A stretch of DNA of 38,369 nucleotides from contig JAPKCI010000036.1 of assembly GCA_028823035.1 (NCBI GenBank), positions 1 through 38,369 on the forward strand, read 5' to 3'. The DNA is from Rubripirellula sp. (lineage in GTDB: Bacteria; Planctomycetota; Planctomycetia; Pirellulales; Pirellulaceae). Positions 1 through 7,052 of the stretch are shown in pieces. The notes under the pieces are model-generated. The model had not been told where the DNA came from. It saw only the letters and a list, made by a program, of their open reading frames with translations, and searched no databases. How positions within the stretch are numbered: the first letter of the stretch is position 1; every line of letters starts with the position of its first letter. A program made the translations under genes and the position numbers.

Positions 1-249
1 TTGAGTACTGACGGTGTCTGGGCAGCGGTCAAAGAAGAAGCGGCGAAGGTGGTTGAGGGTGGGCCTTTCAAACCACTTACTGAGTTGATGGAGAACTTCA
101 TCAATGCTGGCGGCAGAGTCGTTGCATGTGCTCCCTGTTGTAAAAAACGTGGGATCGAGCCGGAGCAACTATTCGACAAAATCGAGATCGCTGGTGGCGC
201 GGTGTTGGTGGAATGGCTTAGCAATGGATCTCCAAACGTCAGTTACTAG
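1..249 (+). CDS. DsrE/DsrF-like sulfur-relay protein, C-terminal part (cut by window edge)
   Basis: The frame is open from base 1 and ends at TAG 247-249, giving 82 residues. The start lies before the window, and the TTG at base 1 is probably an internal Leu codon in the phrase STDGVW. The remaining sequence fits the second half of a DsrE-fold protein: an amphipathic helix, then GGRVVACAPCCKKRG with three cysteines in the strand-turn where DsrE/YchN proteins carry theirs, then a short hydrophobic strand. Family members are about 110-120 residues and handle persulfide sulfur, often with TusA. The next gene, 14 bases downstream, is a TusA-OsmC fusion, which supports a sulfur or selenium transfer role. 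The family call is fairly secure; the substrate is unknown. Confidence 0.72.
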   Translation: MSTDGVWAAVKEEAAKVVEGGPFKPLTELMENFINAGGRVVACAPCCKKRGIEPEQLFDKIEIAGGAVLVEWLSNGSPNVSY

Positions 250-263
250 GTGTCGTATATCTC

Positions 264-998
264 ATGGCAAGGGAAGATATTTCAAACGCCGACCACATCT
301 TCGATGGTGGCTCGATGGACTGTGGTTCCGGGTTGATTCTTTTGATCCGCCAAAACATGTTGAAAGTGCCTTCAGGAGGTATTCTTGAAGTGCGCAGCAG
401 TGAGCCAACGGTGGAGTCAGAGTTACCACCTTGGTGCCGAATGGCTGGGCATATCCATCTGCGAAGTCTCAAGAGTGGAAAAGAAGCCTGGCAGCACTGG
501 GTTCAACGCGGAACCGGTGATGAAGCAGAACGCATTGAGCTTGAAGCTGACAAAAACAAAGCACAACAGTTTCAGTGGAATCTGCGTGCACGGGCAACCG
601 ATGTTGAGACAACCGTCTATTCGAGAAACTTTTCCTGGAAGACGGGCAGCACGATCGATTTTGATCATGCTGGAGAAACCATCAGCACGCTTGAGCATTT
701 CTTTGGTGCGTTGCTTTCCGATGTTATCTACTGTTTTTCAGTGCGTTGCAGCCAGAATGGGATTTTGCTCGATGAGTTGGAAGGCACTGTGAATGGAACG
801 CTCAATAGTCCATTGGCAGCGGTTGGGGTTGAGCAAGGGGATTCATCGGTGAAAAAGATTAAGCTTGTGGTTTACATTACTTCGCCAGCGGCTTCGGCTG
901 ATGTTCAGCGGGAATGGAATCAGGCTTTGACCAGTTCTCCCGTGTTTCAAACATTGCAGAAATCCTGCGAGATTGATTCCAGGATCGTCCTCCTCTGA
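264..998 (+). CDS. TusA-like / OsmC-like two-domain fusion protein
   Basis: This is a 244-residue cytoplasmic protein without signal peptide. Residues about 12-65 resemble the TusA/SirA fold: MDCGSGLILLI is where canonical TusA has its CPxP loop, followed by a strand with LEVRSSEPTVESELPPWC. The usual CPxP is replaced by DCGSG, with the Cys near residue 20 kept and a second Cys near residue 58. Residues about 100-244 match the OsmC/YhfA hydroperoxide-reductase fold, with ETISTLEHFFGALLSDV and two cysteines in YCFSVRCSQ. TusA proteins relay persulfide sulfur; OsmC domains use paired cysteines to reduce peroxides. It lies between a DsrE-like gene and a MetE-like methyltransferase (12-base gap), so the three are probably one operon. 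The ATG at 264 has no clear Shine-Dalgarno sequence, so the start is tentative. Confidence 0.78.
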   Translation: MAREDISNADHIFDGGSMDCGSGLILLIRQNMLKVPSGGILEVRSSEPTVESELPPWCRMAGHIHLRSLKSGKEAWQHWVQRGTGDEAERIELEADKNKAQQFQWNLRARATDVETTVYSRNFSWKTGSTIDFDHAGETISTLEHFFGALLSDVIYCFSVRCSQNGILLDELEGTVNGTLNSPLAAVGVEQGDSSVKKIKLVVYITSPAASADVQREWNQALTSSPVFQTLQKSCEIDSRIVLL

Positions 999-1009
999 AT
1001 GAGTTTCTG

Positions 1010-2170
1010 ATGCATTTCCCAGTGACACAAGTTGGCTCATGGCCGCGTTCCCCAAATCTGCTGTCCGCGCTTCGTGAGAAACGTAGTGGCCGAATGTCAG
1101 GCAAAGAATTCGACAAACTGGCAGACCAGGAAATAAAACGTTGTGTCGATTTACAGCATCAGGCTGATATCGACTTTGTCGTGGATGGTGAGCTTCGCAG
1201 AGACAATTTTTACTCTTTCATCACCGATAAGGTTGAAGGCACTCGGTTGATGTCATTGGCAGAAATGTTGGATACGATGGAAGACAAGGCTGCGTTTGAA
1301 GAGATGCTGCAGACGCTCGATGCACCGGCGTTTGCAATTCGCAATCCAACCTGCACTGGAAAACTGCAAAGACGCGAGTCGCTGGCGGTTGAAGAGTTAA
1401 AGTTTCTGCGCAGCTTGACAGATCGACCTGTCAAAGTAACGTTGCCGGGGCCCTATCTGCTAACCCGCGCGATGTGGGTCACCGCTTATTCCACTGACGC
1501 GTATGGTGATAAACCAGCGATGGCGGATGATATCGTCGCGATCTTGAGGGAAGAGCTTTCTGAACTCATCGCTGAAAATGTGGAATTCGTTCAGTTTGAT
1601 GAACCCGTTTTGACAGAAATTGTTCACAGCAGTGACGACAAACGTCGGACCTTCATGTGAGCGACGCTTGCAACCCGCCGTGATGCGGGTGACGAGTTGG
1701 CTTATGCGGCTGAACTGATGAATCAAGTCGTGGACGGGTTTGAAGATCAAGTGCGACTGGGAATCCACGTCTGCCGTGGCAACTGGTCTAAACGCGAAGA
1801 TGTACTGATTACCGGTGACTACCAGCCTCTGGTCGATTGCTTTTCGGAGATGAATGTCAAGCAACTTGTTCTGGAATATGCGACGCCGCGTGCCGGTGAT
1901 CTTGCCGTCATTGGCCGGGAATTTGCGGATCGCGAGATTGGACTGGGAGTGTGCAATCCTCGAACCGATTATGCTGAGTCCGTTGAGTTGATCGCTAGCC
2001 GGATTCGTGAAGCTCTCAGCTTTTGGTCGCCGGATAAGATTTTCCTCAATCCGGACTGTGGATTTGGTTGTTTTGCCAATCGTTGTGTCAATGAAGAGCA
2101 GATTGCATTTGAAAAGCTGAAAGCAATGGTGACCGCGGCTAAGTTGGCACGTGCGGAATTGTCTGCATAG
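1010..2170 (+). CDS. MetE-like (COG0620) methyltransferase, candidate selenoprotein with in-frame TGA at 1658-1660
   Basis: One reading frame of 387 codons (386 residues if TGA is decoded) is broken only by TGA at codon 217. Both halves match the cobalamin-independent methionine synthase II family: TQVGSWPRS near the start, QFDEPVL before the TGA, and after it the zinc-site residues His253 and Cys255 (HVCRGN), Glu289 (LEYATPRAG) and Cys350 (NPDCGFG). The Glu-to-Cys spacing of 61 equals that of E. coli MetE (Glu665, Cys726). The TGA sits in RTFM-x-ATLATR; family members I recall have Cys there (RTFMCxAL). A hairpin with bacterial SECIS geometry follows (1667-1696). The likely reaction is methyl transfer to or from a thiol or selenol. 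The alternative is a single nonsense mutation, but the 170 codons after the TGA show no decay. Start ATG at 1010. Confidence 0.72.
1667..1696 (+). promoter_or_regulatory. Candidate bacterial SECIS hairpin within the MetE-like reading frame
   Basis: Counting U of UGA (1658) as +1, bases 1673-1678 (ACCCGC) pair perfectly with 1685-1690 (GCGGGT), closing a six-base loop CGTGAT. The loop carries G at +23 and U at +24, the same positions as the essential G23/U24 of E. coli fdhF. A lower stem of four pairs (1667-1670 with 1693-1696) is separated from the upper stem by a two-by-two internal loop. The 18 bases between UGA and loop, and G as second loop base, satisfy the published bacterial SECIS consensus as I know it. 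A bulged U like U17 of fdhF is absent. Binding by SelB is inferred. Confidence 0.6.
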
Positions 2171-2507
2171 AAGAAAGTTAGCTGTGTTTCATGGTTCAAC
2201 TGAAGCCGATTTGGCAGTTGGTGAGATCCTGCAATCAATAATTTGTCAACAGTATTTCCGCATTGCAGGATTCATCGCATTGCCAATCAAGCGTGGGTGG
2301 AAAATCATGCAGTGCTGACAGTCACAACATTCTGGAATATTGTGCGCGAGTTCCCGAGCGATGGGCTGAATTGGGCCCCGGTTCGCACAGTGAGTCCAGA
2401 GCAGTCACCGCAAACAAATGTTTGCGCGACTGAAATTGCTATTTTGCCACAGTTCGTGCAGAGGCGATTTCAGCGGTGCTGTTTGTCACGACATTCTGAA
2501 TGAATCT

Positions 2508-2523
2508 GTCCGAGTTCTCGGAC
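2508..2523. repeat. Perfect short hairpin
   Basis: GTCCGAG (2508-2514) and CTCGGAC (2517-2523) are perfect inverted repeats around TT. No T-run follows on either strand, so it is not an obvious intrinsic terminator. Confidence 0.6.
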
Positions 2524-2530
2524 AACACAC

Positions 2531-2558
2531 TGTGATGGAGTCGATGTGATGGAGTCGA
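2531..2558. repeat. Tandem duplication of a 14-base unit
   Basis: TGTGATGGAGTCGA occurs twice head to tail (2531-2544, 2545-2558). It is an isolated duplication in non-coding sequence. Confidence 0.85.
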
Positions 2559-2867
2559 TGGGGCACAGGGGTTGAGCGGGCAAAAATGCGTGCCTGCAAG
2601 ACGATCGATCCGAGAGTCTTCACGAAGAGTGTTGCTTCCGGTGTACTCTTTTCTGACTGCGGAATTGGCCCTCCCCGCCAGTTCGCACGATGAGAGTCTC
2701 CGCCGGCATTTTCTTGCTGGCCAAAAAACGCAGTGTTCTAGGCGTTTTTCAATTTTCGGCGATTTTGGACCGCGCTCTCTGTCCCAGCTCTTCGGGCCGA
2801 ATTAGTCCGTGTTGCTTCCGTCTCAACCGTATTTGCTCTTCGAACGATCGCGCTCTCGGTTCACAAG

Positions 2868-2987
2868 GTGGCTCCTTGTTACCAAGCCGTTTGCTTCCGA
2901 CCCACCGCAAGCAACAGTTTACGAACTCTCCGGGTTACCGGTCGACTGGATCGGCTGACGCAGTCGATGGTCGTATCGTTGTTGAGT
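2868..2987 (-). pseudogene. Possible remnant of a transposase helix-turn-helix N-terminus
   Basis: Read on the minus strand, the translation contains TQQRYDHRLRQPIQSTGNPE, which resembles TQNRYDHRLKGLVRSTQD at the start of the frameshifted transposase at 7250. After a stop codon, weak similarity to the following GV.ST..GWL segment continues as VACGGSEANGLV. If real, this is a badly decayed copy of the same transposase family. The match is short and the call is tentative. Confidence 0.3.
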
Positions 2988-3166
2988 GTGGAGTGTGGAT
3001 TGAGTATGGCATGCCCCGATGTTCATGTCTTTGACCCTATTACGAAAGTCGATTCGTTCCGTACGAGATAGATTAGCGAGAACTCCTGAAGGCCGTGAGA
3101 AACAGCAGGGCACAAAGTGCCGAGACCGAGCGTGGGAGAACGCAGTCGGTGCGTGTGGTTGGTCTA

Positions 3167-4597
3167 TCACGCAATGATGTCATTGACCACATTTCCGTAG
3201 ACATCGGTAAGTCGGAAGTCGCGGCCGGCGTAGTTGAAGGTGAGCTTTTTGTGATCCAGCCCGAGCAGGTGTAGGATCGTCGCGTGCCAGTCATGAATGT
3301 GGACGGGATTTTCGACGGCGGAATATCCAAGTTCATCCGTGGCCCCATACGCTGTTCCTGGTTTCACTCCGCCGCCTGCCATCCAAATTGTGTAACCTTT
3401 GTTGTTGTGATCTCGGCCGGTGCCGCTCTGAGCGTACGGAGTCCGACCGAACTCGCCCGCCCAGATAACCAGCGTGTCCTTGAGCATCCCGCGTTCTTTA
3501 AGATCGGCAAGCAGCGCGGCGATCGGTTGATCTGTTGCAAGGCATGAATCAGCCAACGCGGTCTTTAGCATGAAGTGATGATCCCAGCCTTTGGGTGCCG
3601 TCAGTTCGATGAAGCGAACACCCGCTTCGGCCATGCGTCGAGCCAGCAGGCATTGTCGTCCGAAACGATCCGTGGGTTGGCCGCTCCCGATTCCGTAGCC
3701 ATCTAACGTCGCTGCGGATTCGGTAGACATATCCAGTAGACTCGGCACCTCGTCCTGCATACGAAAGGCCAATTCAAACGACTCGATTGCACCTTCGATT
3801 TCCGGATGATAAACGTCGCGTTGCAATTTCTGAGCGTTCAGATTGCGAATAAAATCCAACTGCCTTCGCTGTTGCTCCTTGGTCAGCAGCTTGTTCTCCA
3901 TGTCGCGAAGCGGAGCGCCGGATTCTTGATCGACGCCGAGCATCTTCGCGTAGAATTCGGGAATCTGATTCGTACCGATTTTTGTTGCCTGATAGACCGC
4001 GGGCAGAAAGGCGCTGCCGTAATTGCGGGCCCCGCCGTTTTCAGACGGTGGATTCAGCGTGATAAAACCGGGCAGATTCTTGTTCTCCGTGCCCAGTCCG
4101 TACAACGACCACGCTCCCATCGAAGGCCGCGTGAACTGAAAACTGCCGGTGTGCATTTGAATGAACGCCTGCGAATGATTCGGCAGATCGGTGTGCATGC
4201 TGTTGATGAAACACAAGTCATCGGCGTGCTGCGCGAGGTGCGGGCATAATTCCGAACACCACAAGCCGGATTCACCGTGCCGCTTGAATTTGAACGGTGA
4301 AGGCATCAACCCTTTGTTTCCGGCAATCGGGCTATCGGCTGTGCTTCGGCCTTCGTGATCGGCCAGCTTGGGCTTGTGATCGAACAGGTCAATGTGCGAC
4401 GGACCGCCATTCATCGAAAGAAAAATCACTCGCTTGGCGGTGGCGGGTAAATGAGTCCGCTTTGGAGCCAACGGGCCCCGAGCAGACGAATCGTCCGCGG
4501 CTACCTGCTGTGCCAGACTCGCAAAAGCAAGGTAGCCGAATCCCGACGACAGCGATTTCAAAGTGGCGCGGCGAGAGAATAGTGATTGCATGGTCAT
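3167..4597 (-). CDS. DUF1501 domain secreted protein (sulfatase-like fold)
   Basis: This is a 476-residue protein of the DUF1501 family, which is abundant in planctomycetes and related to the alkaline phosphatase/sulfatase fold. The N-terminus has a twin-arginine-type signal (SRRATLKSLSSGFGYLAF, cleavage near AQQVAA), so export by Tat is likely. Family signatures are FLSMNGGPSHIDLFDHKP, MHTDLPNHSQA, ENGGARNYGS, GEFGRTPYAQSGTGRDHN and the C-terminal HDWHATILHLLGLDH. It begins one base after the stop of the DUF1549/DUF1553 gene (minus strand ...TGA A ATG), so the two are translationally coupled. Such pairs are assumed to act together in the periplasm; the substrate is not known. ATG at 4597 is preferred; Met3 is also possible. 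Confidence 0.93.
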   Translation of the reverse strand: MTMQSLFSRRATLKSLSSGFGYLAFASLAQQVAADDSSARGPLAPKRTHLPATAKRVIFLSMNGGPSHIDLFDHKPKLADHEGRSTADSPIAGNKGLMPSPFKFKRHGESGLWCSELCPHLAQHADDLCFINSMHTDLPNHSQAFIQMHTGSFQFTRPSMGAWSLYGLGTENKNLPGFITLNPPSENGGARNYGSAFLPAVYQATKIGTNQIPEFYAKMLGVDQESGAPLRDMENKLLTKEQQRRQLDFIRNLNAQKLQRDVYHPEIEGAIESFELAFRMQDEVPSLLDMSTESAATLDGYGIGSGQPTDRFGRQCLLARRMAEAGVRFIELTAPKGWDHHFMLKTALADSCLATDQPIAALLADLKERGMLKDTLVIWAGEFGRTPYAQSGTGRDHNNKGYTIWMAGGGVKPGTAYGATDELGYSAVENPVHIHDWHATILHLLGLDHKKLTFNYAGRDFRLTDVYGNVVNDIIA

Positions 4598-4598
4598 T

Positions 4599-7052
4599 TC
4601 AATCGAGGTTACGAAACTCGGCCGTACATAGCATAGCCTGACAGAAACTCAACATCGTCACATCGTCATCGTTGTCCAAGAACGCTCGTGACTGTTCTCG
4701 TTCATCTTCGATGGGCGCACGCGAGAAGCACAATTCGAACGCCCGTTCGATCAGTTGGTTGTTATCGGAAGTTTCCTCCTGAAGTCGCGTGGCTAGCCGT
4801 TTCGCACGCTGCTGAACAAAGGAACTGTTCATCAGGTAAAACGCTTGAACGGGAACGTTTGTGGTTTCTCTCTCACCAGTAACGAGACTCGGCTCCGCAA
4901 AATCGAACAGGTTCAATACGTCCGGCAGCCGATCGCGAATCACCGGCAGGTAGACGGACCTATGAATGGAACCGTCAAGATCGCGTGGCAGCTTCTCAAT
5001 TAGTCCGATCAGCGAAATCGGACGATCGCCGACGACTGTTGCAACGAGTGAGCCTCCAGGTCGCTTGAGATCCAACTCGCCGGAAACCAATAGCATCGCA
5101 TCGCGGATTACTTCTGCTTCAAGCCTCCGCTTGGGCATCCTCCATAAAAATTGATTGTCTGGGTCTTTTTGGAACGCGTTTTGATTGAACTTCGATGACT
5201 GTCGGTACGTTCGTGAAAGTACCAATTGGCGAATGAGCCCTTTCGTTGACCAACCATCGTCCGCAAAACGCACAGCGAGCGTATCCAGCAAATCGCCATG
5301 ACTTGGATTGCTGCCGGTTGTGCCAAAATTGTCGACCGTCGAAACCAATCCCCGTCCGAATAGATGCTTCCATACTCGGTTCACGAAGACGCGGCTGGTG
5401 AGTGGGTGGTCTGGGCTAGTGAGCCATCGCGCCAATTCAAGACGGCCGCTTTGCTTTTTGGGTATCGACGGGGTGGCATTAACAGCAAACGCCTGCGGGA
5501 ACGCGCGTTGCACAGTGTCACCTTCGCGACCGATTTCGCCACGAGCAAGCAACGGTAGATCCATGATTTCGTCGTCCAGCACGCCCATCGCCACCGGCAA
5601 AGCCTCGCCCGTGTCGCCAAGTGTTTCCAGTTTGCCTTCAACGGGGCCAAGTTGCCATCGATTGGCCAGCACTTCTCGCAGTGTAAACCTCTTCTTCGGC
5701 TTTTTGCCCGCAAACGCTGCATCGCGAGCCGCATTGATCTCCGATCGAACGACGGCAAGTTCGGCCTGTTTCGCCTTCAGTTCCTCAAACTTTTTCGGTG
5801 GCAGCGATTTGTTGAAAATCTTCTGGCCGGAGACGCGCGGCAACACCAACGGATCGCCTCCCCGGTTGTTTGCCGGCGAGGTGAACGTGCCGAAGAATGT
5901 CTTAGTGCTGGCGAAGATTCCGGCTAGAGCGTAGTAATCTTCCATCGAAAAGGGATCGAATTTATGATGATGACATCGAGCACACGCGACGGAACTTGCC
6001 ATGACCGCACGCGTCAGCGAATCGACTTGCTCGTCAATAAGATCAGCGTTGAATTTCGCGTCGTTGCTCTCCCCAAGGTTCTTCGTGCCCACCGCAAGGA
6101 ATCCCGTCGCCGTCAGCAGTCGAGCGCGTTGGGAATCATCATTGAACGGCAGCAGGTCGCCGGCAATCTGTTCGGTCAGAAAACGATCGTACGGAATGTC
6201 TGCATTGACCGCGTCGATAACGTAGTCGCGGTATCGCCACGCATAGGGAAATGACACATTCGACTCGCCGCCGCTGGATTCGCCATACCTCGCAATGTCC
6301 AGCCAGTGCCGGCCCCAACGCTCGCCAAATTGAGGCGACTGCAGCAACCCATCCACTTCGATCTCAAGTGCCGATTCGATTCCAGACGACTTTGTCGCGG
6401 CAAGAAACCGATCCACCGCAGCAACCGACGGCGGAAGTCCGGCCAGATCAAAATGCAACCTGCGAAGCAACGTTCGCGGCTCTGCGTCTGCGGACGGCGC
6501 GAGCCCCTCTTTCGATAGCACACTCAAGACAAATCGATCAACGTCGCCGCGAGCCCACGAGTCATCTTCAACATCTGGAGCCGCTTTCGCCGAAGATGCC
6601 TGATAGGCCCAGTGATTTTTCGCCGCTTCGATGCCATTCCAAATTCCGTCAGATTCCGGTACATCATCCGTCCGCGGGTCGGGTGCTCCCATTTCGATCC
6701 ACTTGCGAAAATTGGCAATGATCGAACCCGAAAGCTTCGGCCCTTTTGGAGGCATCTTCAGGTCCGCATCGGTGTGCGAGATGGCCGTTAACAGCACACT
6801 AGCTTGCAGACGCTTGGGCACAATCGCAGGACCACGATCGCCGCCATTGCGAATAGACACGCGCGAGTCGACTCGCAGGCTGCCTTCGTTGTTCGCCCCC
6901 GCATGGCAATCGTAACAGTGCTTCACTAGCACTGGGCGAATCTTCGACTCGAAAAACTTCACACCACGAGCTTCTTGCAAAGAGTCTTCCACGCCGGATG
7001 AAACAGCCGCGGATCCGGCAAGACAGATCAATGCGTAAACAACTCGTTTCAT
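4599..7052 (-). CDS. Planctomycete cytochrome c / DUF1549 / DUF1553 secreted protein
   Basis: The protein has 817 residues with a Sec-type signal (RVVYALICLAGSAAVSSG). Domains run in the usual order. First is PSCyt1 with one heme motif CYDCH near residue 46 and DSRVSIRNGGDRGPAIVP. Then comes PSCyt2/DUF1549 with VDRFVLSVLSKEGL and FGERWGRHWLDIARY, with the CARCHHHKFDPF motif further on. A short linker follows, then PSD1/DUF1553 with LARWLTSPDHPLTSRVFVNR, NFGTTGSNPSHGDLLD and FYLMNSSFV. It is somewhat shorter than many relatives because the linker between DUF1549 and DUF1553 is compact. It heads a two-gene operon with the DUF1501 gene. The role in extracytoplasmic redox or polymer breakdown is inferred from the family. 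Start ATG at 7052. Confidence 0.94.
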   Translation of the reverse strand: MKRVVYALICLAGSAAVSSGVEDSLQEARGVKFFESKIRPVLVKHCYDCHAGANNEGSLRVDSRVSIRNGGDRGPAIVPKRLQASVLLTAISHTDADLKMPPKGPKLSGSIIANFRKWIEMGAPDPRTDDVPESDGIWNGIEAAKNHWAYQASSAKAAPDVEDDSWARGDVDRFVLSVLSKEGLAPSADAEPRTLLRRLHFDLAGLPPSVAAVDRFLAATKSSGIESALEIEVDGLLQSPQFGERWGRHWLDIARYGESSGGESNVSFPYAWRYRDYVIDAVNADIPYDRFLTEQIAGDLLPFNDDSQRARLLTATGFLAVGTKNLGESNDAKFNADLIDEQVDSLTRAVMASSVACARCHHHKFDPFSMEDYYALAGIFASTKTFFGTFTSPANNRGGDPLVLPRVSGQKIFNKSLPPKKFEELKAKQAELAVVRSEINAARDAAFAGKKPKKRFTLREVLANRWQLGPVEGKLETLGDTGEALPVAMGVLDDEIMDLPLLARGEIGREGDTVQRAFPQAFAVNATPSIPKKQSGRLELARWLTSPDHPLTSRVFVNRVWKHLFGRGLVSTVDNFGTTGSNPSHGDLLDTLAVRFADDGWSTKGLIRQLVLSRTYRQSSKFNQNAFQKDPDNQFLWRMPKRRLEAEVIRDAMLLVSGELDLKRPGGSLVATVVGDRPISLIGLIEKLPRDLDGSIHRSVYLPVIRDRLPDVLNLFDFAEPSLVTGERETTNVPVQAFYLMNSSFVQQRAKRLATRLQEETSDNNQLIERAFELCFSRAPIEDEREQSRAFLDNDDDVTMLSFCQAMLCTAEFRNLD

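Follow-up and report, generated by a model that had tools for sequence, protein, structure and literature searches.

A predicted MetE-like selenoprotein encoded with TusA- and DsrE-like sulfur carriers in the planctomycete Rubripirellula

Background

The core methionine synthases MesA–MesD and the C-terminal half of MetE share a barrel fold, a set of H-C-E-C zinc ligands and the Ser, Glu and Asp residues that bind homocysteine. The protein described here, encoded by a gene of Rubripirellula sp. with an in-frame TGA, has the same fold and residues and, like these proteins, is without the folate-binding N-terminal domain. It differs from them in a 12-position insertion, in a TusA partner or fusion, and in low scores against NCBIfam models.

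Other described systems resemble parts of this locus. The selenophosphate synthetase SelD, itself often a selenoprotein, is likewise a selenium-metabolism protein with a reactive Sec or Cys in a flexible loop, and the available part of PMC13188914 describes the form of selenium that SelD uses in vivo, and its donor system, as incompletely elucidated. SelD belongs to another family and has a different chemistry, and the likeness is an analogy only. Two known selenoproteins annotated as methyltransferases, arsenite methyltransferase and MduS, are presumably SAM-dependent enzymes. They fall under NF008823 and PF13649 and are not PF01717 zinc enzymes (PMC13188914, part available). The TusA-DsrE fusion YedF (TIGR03527) also combines TusA and DsrE in a selenium-linked setting, as the accessible text of PMC5322559 has it, whereas TusA and DsrE are separate genes in the operon around the MetE-like gene and have MetE-like and OsmC-like partners. 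Selenoproteins of the OsmC-like and DsrE-like types, listed in the accessible parts of PMC2398784 and PMC13188914, belong to the same domain families as the carriers found here; in contrast, the DsrE and TusA/OsmC genes of this locus have no in-frame TGA, and the predicted selenocysteine is in the MetE-like protein.

Results and discussion

Reading frame, protein family and fold

The window – the whole stretch of DNA that was analysed – consists of 38,369 nucleotides (contig JAPKCI010000036.1 of assembly GCA_028823035.1, Rubripirellula sp.). The MetE-like gene lies on its forward strand at 1010–2170, as do the other features given below unless noted. As an initial annotation of the window had it, this is one frame with a single TGA: translation gives 386 residues and a TAG stop, and the sole in-frame TGA is at 1658–1660, codon 217.

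The protein is a member of the superfamily defined by the MetE catalytic domain, PF01717, which it matches at 117.2 bits (curated cut-off 21). It is not a full-length MetE, with 103.8 bits against the 929.95 of TIGR01371, and it has no match to the folate-binding N-terminal domain PF08267 at E ≤ 0.001. Nine NCBIfam models matched, all of them far under the curated methionine-synthase cut-offs; the best was NF003317, at 176.7 versus 406 bits. An ordinary MetE was rejected on the missing PF08267 and on these low scores. The name 'methyltransferase' would be a provisional one for this protein, taken from its family membership.

The catalytic positions of the family, with roles as given in the available part of PMC7857596, were compared in 69 distinct loci, read as a set of 53 and a further 16. 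The homocysteine-carboxyl binding position, Ser10 (1037–1039), is Ser in 51 of 53 (two gaps) and 16 of 16. The two homocysteine-amino binding positions are Glu61 (1190–1192; Glu in 52 of 53, one gap, and 16 of 16) and Asp197 (1598–1600; 53 of 53 and 16 of 16), the latter at the end of barrel strand 6. The zinc ligands align with those of the MetE family – His253 and Cys255 (1766–1774), Glu289 (1874–1876) and Cys350 (2057–2059), each in 53 of 53 and 16 of 16. The initial annotation had called these four ligands intact downstream of the TGA, and they are kept in all 69 loci.

An AlphaFold model of the 386-residue protein has a pLDDT of 85.4, and the structures that it most resembles are those of MetE and MesD (3RPD). 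In the model barrel strand 6 is followed by an inserted loop, and Sec217 sits in it. The insertion consists of 12 extra profile positions, which carry the motif R-T-F-M-U/C and are gapped in MetE 4ZTX. Since the neighbouring residues 209–215 have pLDDT below 50, we infer only from the place of the insertion after strand 6 that Sec217 may lie near the zinc site.

Codon 217 in related genes

Codon 217 is TGA in 13 of the 69 loci and a cysteine codon in the other 56 (47 TGC, 9 TGT); no locus has any other residue. The set of 53 contributed 13 TGA, 32 TGC and 8 TGT, and the further 16 contributed 15 TGC and 1 TGT. Together they cover 50 of the 51 genomes of the phylum that have the enzyme; in the remaining one (G373) the match ends ahead of codon 217. 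The initial annotation had given the family a Cys at this site, in the motif RTFMC, and had proposed that Cys/TGA pairs be sought in other planctomycetes. Both are present there, with the motif of the Cys relatives spelling R/H/T, T/S/C, F-M-C.

A search of 199 Pirellulaceae genomes gave matches of some kind in 76. Nine of the 199 have full-length matches with one TGA, and eight have stop-free forms of 40–46% identity (one partial), with Cys at the aligned site in 8 of 8. Across the phylum, 54 of 392 genomes matched at E ≤ 1e-45, and 51 of the 54 scored above 200 bits; an internal TGA was found in three of these 51, the genome of the window, G245 and G377. A scan of genome contigs gave five close relatives, all five with TGA, three of which are contigs already among the other matches. 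More distant PF01717 proteins (13 loci aligned) have gaps or no alignable motif residue at the site of codon 217.

G187, a genome from the same genus, has only fragments of the gene (G187:C86:16269-16529), 62% and 74% identical; a TGA and a TAG occur in one of them. These are probably a decayed copy of the selenoprotein gene; SelA and SelB matches are nonetheless found in that genome.

A maximum-likelihood tree was made of 52 proteins with the TGA codon masked, one partial row and the 16 later-read loci being left out. It has two Sec clades, one of 11 rows and one of 2, with Cys lineages between them, and the same two clades are found in a tree with five outgroups. The Cys/Sec label needs two changes on the tree, the starred branches force two, and a single change suffices in none of 200 bootstrap trees. 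There have been at least two changes between Cys and Sec; either two gains, or one gain and losses, would fit this count.

Selection on either side of the TGA was compared by pairing the window gene with each of ten Sec-type relatives. With L009, pN/pS is 0.084 before the TGA and 0.092 after it. More distant pairs are somewhat higher after the TGA, with a maximum of 0.41 versus 0.29 before (L022), and the second Sec clade (L101 and L102) has 0.29 before and 0.26 after. Purifying selection is similar on both sides of the TGA – coding selection continues past the UGA.

A hairpin after the UGA

A bacterial SECIS element is a stem-loop soon after the UGA with a G within the first two bases of its loop. 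A SECIS-like apical hairpin is found at 1673–1690. Its 6-bp stem is ACCCGC/GCGGGT (1673–1678 and 1685–1690), and its loop is CGTGAT (CGUGAU in the RNA; 1679–1684). Counting the U of the UGA as +1, the loop has G at +23 (1680) and U at +24, just where the initial annotation placed them, an arrangement that we take to be like that of E. coli fdhF.

The folding energy depends on the segment. The 46 nt at 1655–1700 gave z = −1.5, with 14 of 200 shuffles folding equally well, a 61-nt stretch gave z = −2.5 (2 of 200 shuffles as good), and the 48 nt from the UGA gave z = −3.7. Over such 48-nt segments the mean z was −2.1 in the 11 main-clade Sec loci versus +0.5 in 40 Cys loci. Folds were weak in the second Sec clade (z = +0.74 for L101 and −0.25 for L102) and in one main-clade locus, L059 (z = +0.45); in the best fold of L102 the G is not among the first two loop bases. 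Fold energy by itself is weak evidence for the hairpin.

The strong evidence is synonymous constraint. Across the 11 Sec-type genes, mean codon entropy is 0.146 over the hairpin codons 222–227 and 1.373 over the 178 other codons whose amino acid is invariant; none of 100,000 degeneracy-matched draws was as low, and the two lowest-entropy of 66 scored six-codon windows fall on the hairpin. The covariance folding that had been suggested gave a divided result. Consensus folding of the 11 main-clade loci does yield the hairpin, with the stem and the loop G common to all 11. Covariation did not appear, because the stem is nearly invariant: none of the eight consensus pairs in these 11 loci has a two-sided change, and the one change seen is a C-G to U-G in one locus. 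In the second Sec clade codon identity peaks just after the UGA, and a hairpin in its two loci is not convincing. An Rfam scan of window positions 1–3000 gave no match, and a promoter and terminator scan gave nothing beyond shuffles.

Selenocysteine machinery

The genome of the window (7.4 Mb, 99.6% complete) has selA, selB, selC and selD, the four genes for which a search had been advised. The selB, selA and selD genes are side by side on contig C325, and tRNA-Sec, with anticodon TCA, is on contig C398; the sel genes are on another contig than the selenoprotein gene. SelB was found at E ≤ 1e-50 in 8 of the 9 Sec-type Pirellulaceae genomes and in 8 of the 8 Cys-type genomes. The TGA-bearing genome with no SelB match at this threshold (G024) is 78% complete, and SelA is present in it.

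The SelD of the window's genome (L067:7676-9832, G000:C325) is fused to a pyridine-nucleotide-disulfide oxidoreductase. The fused protein scores over the selD and Nterm_to_SelD cut-offs and below the TIGR04369 'fusion_not_SelD' cut-off.

Decoding of the UGA

The initial annotation proposed that the UGA is read as selenocysteine, and this reading is supported by the Cys/TGA pairs, by selection, by the constraint on the hairpin and by the sel machinery. Two of the findings that it had named as refuting the proposal, a genome lacking the machinery and homologues with a residue other than Cys, did not turn up. With hardly any doubt on our part, the TGA at 1658–1660 is predicted to be read as Sec by the organism's own SelA, SelB, SelD and tRNA-Sec, steered by the hairpin at 1673–1690, giving a zinc enzyme with Sec217.

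Decoding of the UGA as another amino acid, by a Trp code or a suppressor, is very improbable: it would account for the open frame and for nothing beyond it, the relatives have Cys and never Trp (69 loci), the upstream TusA/OsmC gene terminates in a TGA of its own (996–998), and the genome has the Sec genes, among them one for a tRNA-Sec whose anticodon is TCA. Such readings were rejected on these grounds. That the TGA is an ordinary stop, in a pseudogene, a split pair of genes or an assembly error, is scarcely credible and was likewise rejected, since for all that a stop codon is there and G187 has only TGA/TAG-bearing fragments, the same TGA recurs in 13 distinct loci of different genomes, similar purifying selection and the constrained hairpin follow it, and the zinc ligands are downstream of it.

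The initial annotation knew of no firmly described selenoprotein in this family. No MetE-like or PF01717 entry is found in the available part of the 2026 table of 119 prokaryotic selenoprotein families and subfamilies (PMC13188914), and none of the matching NCBIfam models is a selenoprotein model. Nor was a MetE-like selenoprotein found among the titles listed, in part the best matches only, from the literature, or in passages of PMC9312934, PMC12013277, PMC5322559 and PMC2398784. This negative applies to the literature apart from the S9 Table of PMC4807772, which gives selenoprotein candidates of strains P1 and P2 and where a MetE-like protein may figure.

A conserved operon of sulfur carriers

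The MetE-like gene is the last of a conserved operon – a TusA-like gene, DsrE, TusA(/OsmC) and the MetE-like gene – which is also found around the Cys versions. At the start of the window, positions 1–249 are the 3' part of a DsrE-like gene whose start is beyond the contig end and whose stop is the TAG at 247–249. It matches PF02635 at 35.6 bits on 1–243 and shares 85% identity with its DsrE counterpart in locus L056. Wherever an operon locus has a DsrE match (28 loci), the CxxC motif, CAPC in the window, is kept. The gene at 264–998 immediately precedes that of the selenoprotein and codes for a TusA-like and OsmC-like fusion of 244 aa, with Pfam scores of 26.1 bits for TusA and 23.3 for OsmC, just below the curated cut-offs of 28.6 and 27.5. 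Cys20 and Cys58 of this fusion are kept in 29 of 29 operon loci, a comparison from which L059, L108 and L111 were left out; the window, L063 and L065 lack the small TusA gene or have it truncated, and there the match for it is the other TusA. A YedF identity was rejected, as TIGR03527 matches neither the 264–998 protein nor the DsrE fragment of the window, nor does it match DsrE or TusA from L056.

Among the 11 loci of the main Sec clade, DsrE and TusA/OsmC are upstream in 10, and a further small TusA gene is found in 9 of the 11; the window is cut at this point and L059 is without it. In the Cys-type Pirellulaceae loci, TusA is fused to the enzyme in all six fetched (of eight genomes), and DsrE adjoins in five of these six. 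Phylum-wide, 14 loci were fetched (2 Sec-type, 12 Cys-type), and DsrE is found in 12 of them, with none nearby in L108 and L111. L059 (G117) has no carrier genes beside its MetE-like gene. In the same genome, TusA/OsmC-like (42% identical) and TusA-like matches are found ~104 kb from the selenoprotein gene (G117:C2:562596-563889).

A transglutaminase-like gene is near the TusA-DsrE-MetE cluster in 7 of the 14 phylum loci (L101, L102, L103, L107, L109, L110 and L112) and in none of 20 other planctomycete MetE-like loci searched, three of which are duplicates of named contigs. In the available part of the paper on Porphyra planctomycetes (PMC4807772), the Sec operon of Rhodopirellula strain P2 likewise appears together with a transglutaminase-domain gene.

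Elsewhere in the window, at 3167–7052 on the reverse strand, a DUF1501 protein adjoins a PSCyt1/PSCyt2/PSD1 protein, both planctomycete-type genes. This pairing is common.

Link to selenium genes

SelA (E ≤ 1e-40) is found in 49 of the 51 phylum genomes with the MetE-like family, the exceptions being G408 and G460, and in 193 of the 341 without it (Fisher p = 2e-9, with related genomes counted as independent). Within the Pirellulaceae the figures are 16 of 17 (not G133) versus 90 of 182 (p = 2e-4, kin again counted as independent). Because most carriers have the Cys form, Sec in the MetE-like protein is not the cause of this association.

A search of plasmids gave 28 records, the best three being from Paracoccus at ~41% identity and the other listed rows at no more than 31%. 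Presence outside the Planctomycetota is known from this plasmid search alone, because the genome-contig scan gave the five close relatives described above; a scan of viral contigs found no relative. The neighbourhoods of three of the 28 records were examined. In plasmid pFER4 of P. ferrooxidans the order is transglutaminase, cysteine desulfurase (on the opposite strand), TusA, DsrE, two unknown genes, TusA-MetE(Cys), selA and trxB; the TusA-MetE motif is RSFMC, and selB is ~8 kb from TusA. The genes are arranged alike in the single P. versutus plasmid fetched. TusA-MetE is thus directly upstream of selA-trxB in both Paracoccus plasmids examined, and physical linkage of the MetE-like gene to sel genes was found in Paracoccus only. 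Around the Rubrobacter relative (31%), none of the annotated genes is a carrier gene.

The Paracoccus selenium island spans 6121–15571 in L123 (CP038202.1), and the same region is found in L122. Its 168-aa and 522-aa proteins have no Pfam or NCBIfam match at E ≤ 0.01.

Possible function

The operon and the link to Sec genes suggest a role in sulfur or selenium handling. Taken whole, and with the exact reaction left aside, a selenoprotein in a chalcogen-relay context is the likely account of this locus. From the operon, the fusion, the co-occurrence with SelA and the linkage to selA, the enzyme may be the end of a conserved chalcogen relay that serves selenium metabolism, a proposal we hold to be evenly balanced. 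The order of the relay would be TusA-like, DsrE, TusA(/OsmC), MetE-like.

A chemistry for the relay can be proposed, as a speculation that we rather doubt. The carriers would hand sulfane sulfur or selenium, as a persulfide or perselenide, to Sec/Cys217. This residue would then pass the chalcogen to, or strip it from, a homocysteine- or methionine-type substrate that Ser10, Glu61, Asp197 and the zinc hold in place. Examples would be the release of selenium from selenomethionine-like compounds or the formation of a selenol for SelD. Sec would take the place of Cys where it is of advantage to have a better nucleophile or to resist over-oxidation.

The conserved homocysteine-binding residues suit methyl transfer no less well than they suit chalcogen transfer. 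The protein could be a selenoprotein that transfers methyl groups, as a core folate-independent methionine synthase or a thiol methyltransferase, with Sec217 tuning the site or shuttling the methyl, the carriers delivering sulfur for a sulfur substrate, and the sel link being a shared-lineage effect. This is a serious possibility, which we nonetheless incline against. The zinc and homocysteine-binding residues are kept, as it would have them, and MetE and MesD 3RPD are the closest structures; against it, 17 of the 20 carriers tested have a MetH match (14 above the curated cut-off), including the genome of the window, and therefore the MetE-like enzyme is mostly not the needed methionine synthase. 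The Paracoccus genes next to selA-trxB also speak against it, and we know of no TusA-DsrE-TusA carriers or TusA fusion that are partners of a methionine synthase; a literature search combining TusA, DsrE, methionine synthase and fusion found no paper. The three of the 20 carriers with no MetH match are G118, G319 and G413. G319 and G413, which have the Cys form and the carrier operon, are rated 100% complete, a point in favour of methyl transfer, and the family might be the methionine synthase of these two genomes.

The MetE family also includes zinc thiol transferases such as epoxyalkane:coenzyme M transferase. An enzyme of this kind, joining a small thiol or a persulfide bound to a carrier to an electrophile in detoxification or cofactor synthesis, could be supplied with sulfane sulfur by the carriers; it is an unlikely reading, as the kept homocysteine-binding residues are not obviously needed for it and the link to Sec genes is left unexplained.

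Returning to the chalcogen relay, the operon could be an undescribed route of selenium trafficking, in which two TusA-type carriers and DsrE would give selenium, as perselenide, to a MetE-derived zinc enzyme that makes or releases the selenium donor for SelD or SelA and that in some lineages would be a selenoprotein itself. We put this forward tentatively, as a possibility less probable than not.

Conclusions

If UGA 217 is read as predicted, the MetE-like protein would be a new selenoprotein family within PF01717, and a zinc thiol enzyme, unlike the thioredoxin-like oxidoreductases. In genomes that have TGA at this codon, the MetE-like gene as called is probably truncated. If the trafficking role is also true, the companion operon would be a concrete candidate for the system that donates selenium to SelD in vivo.
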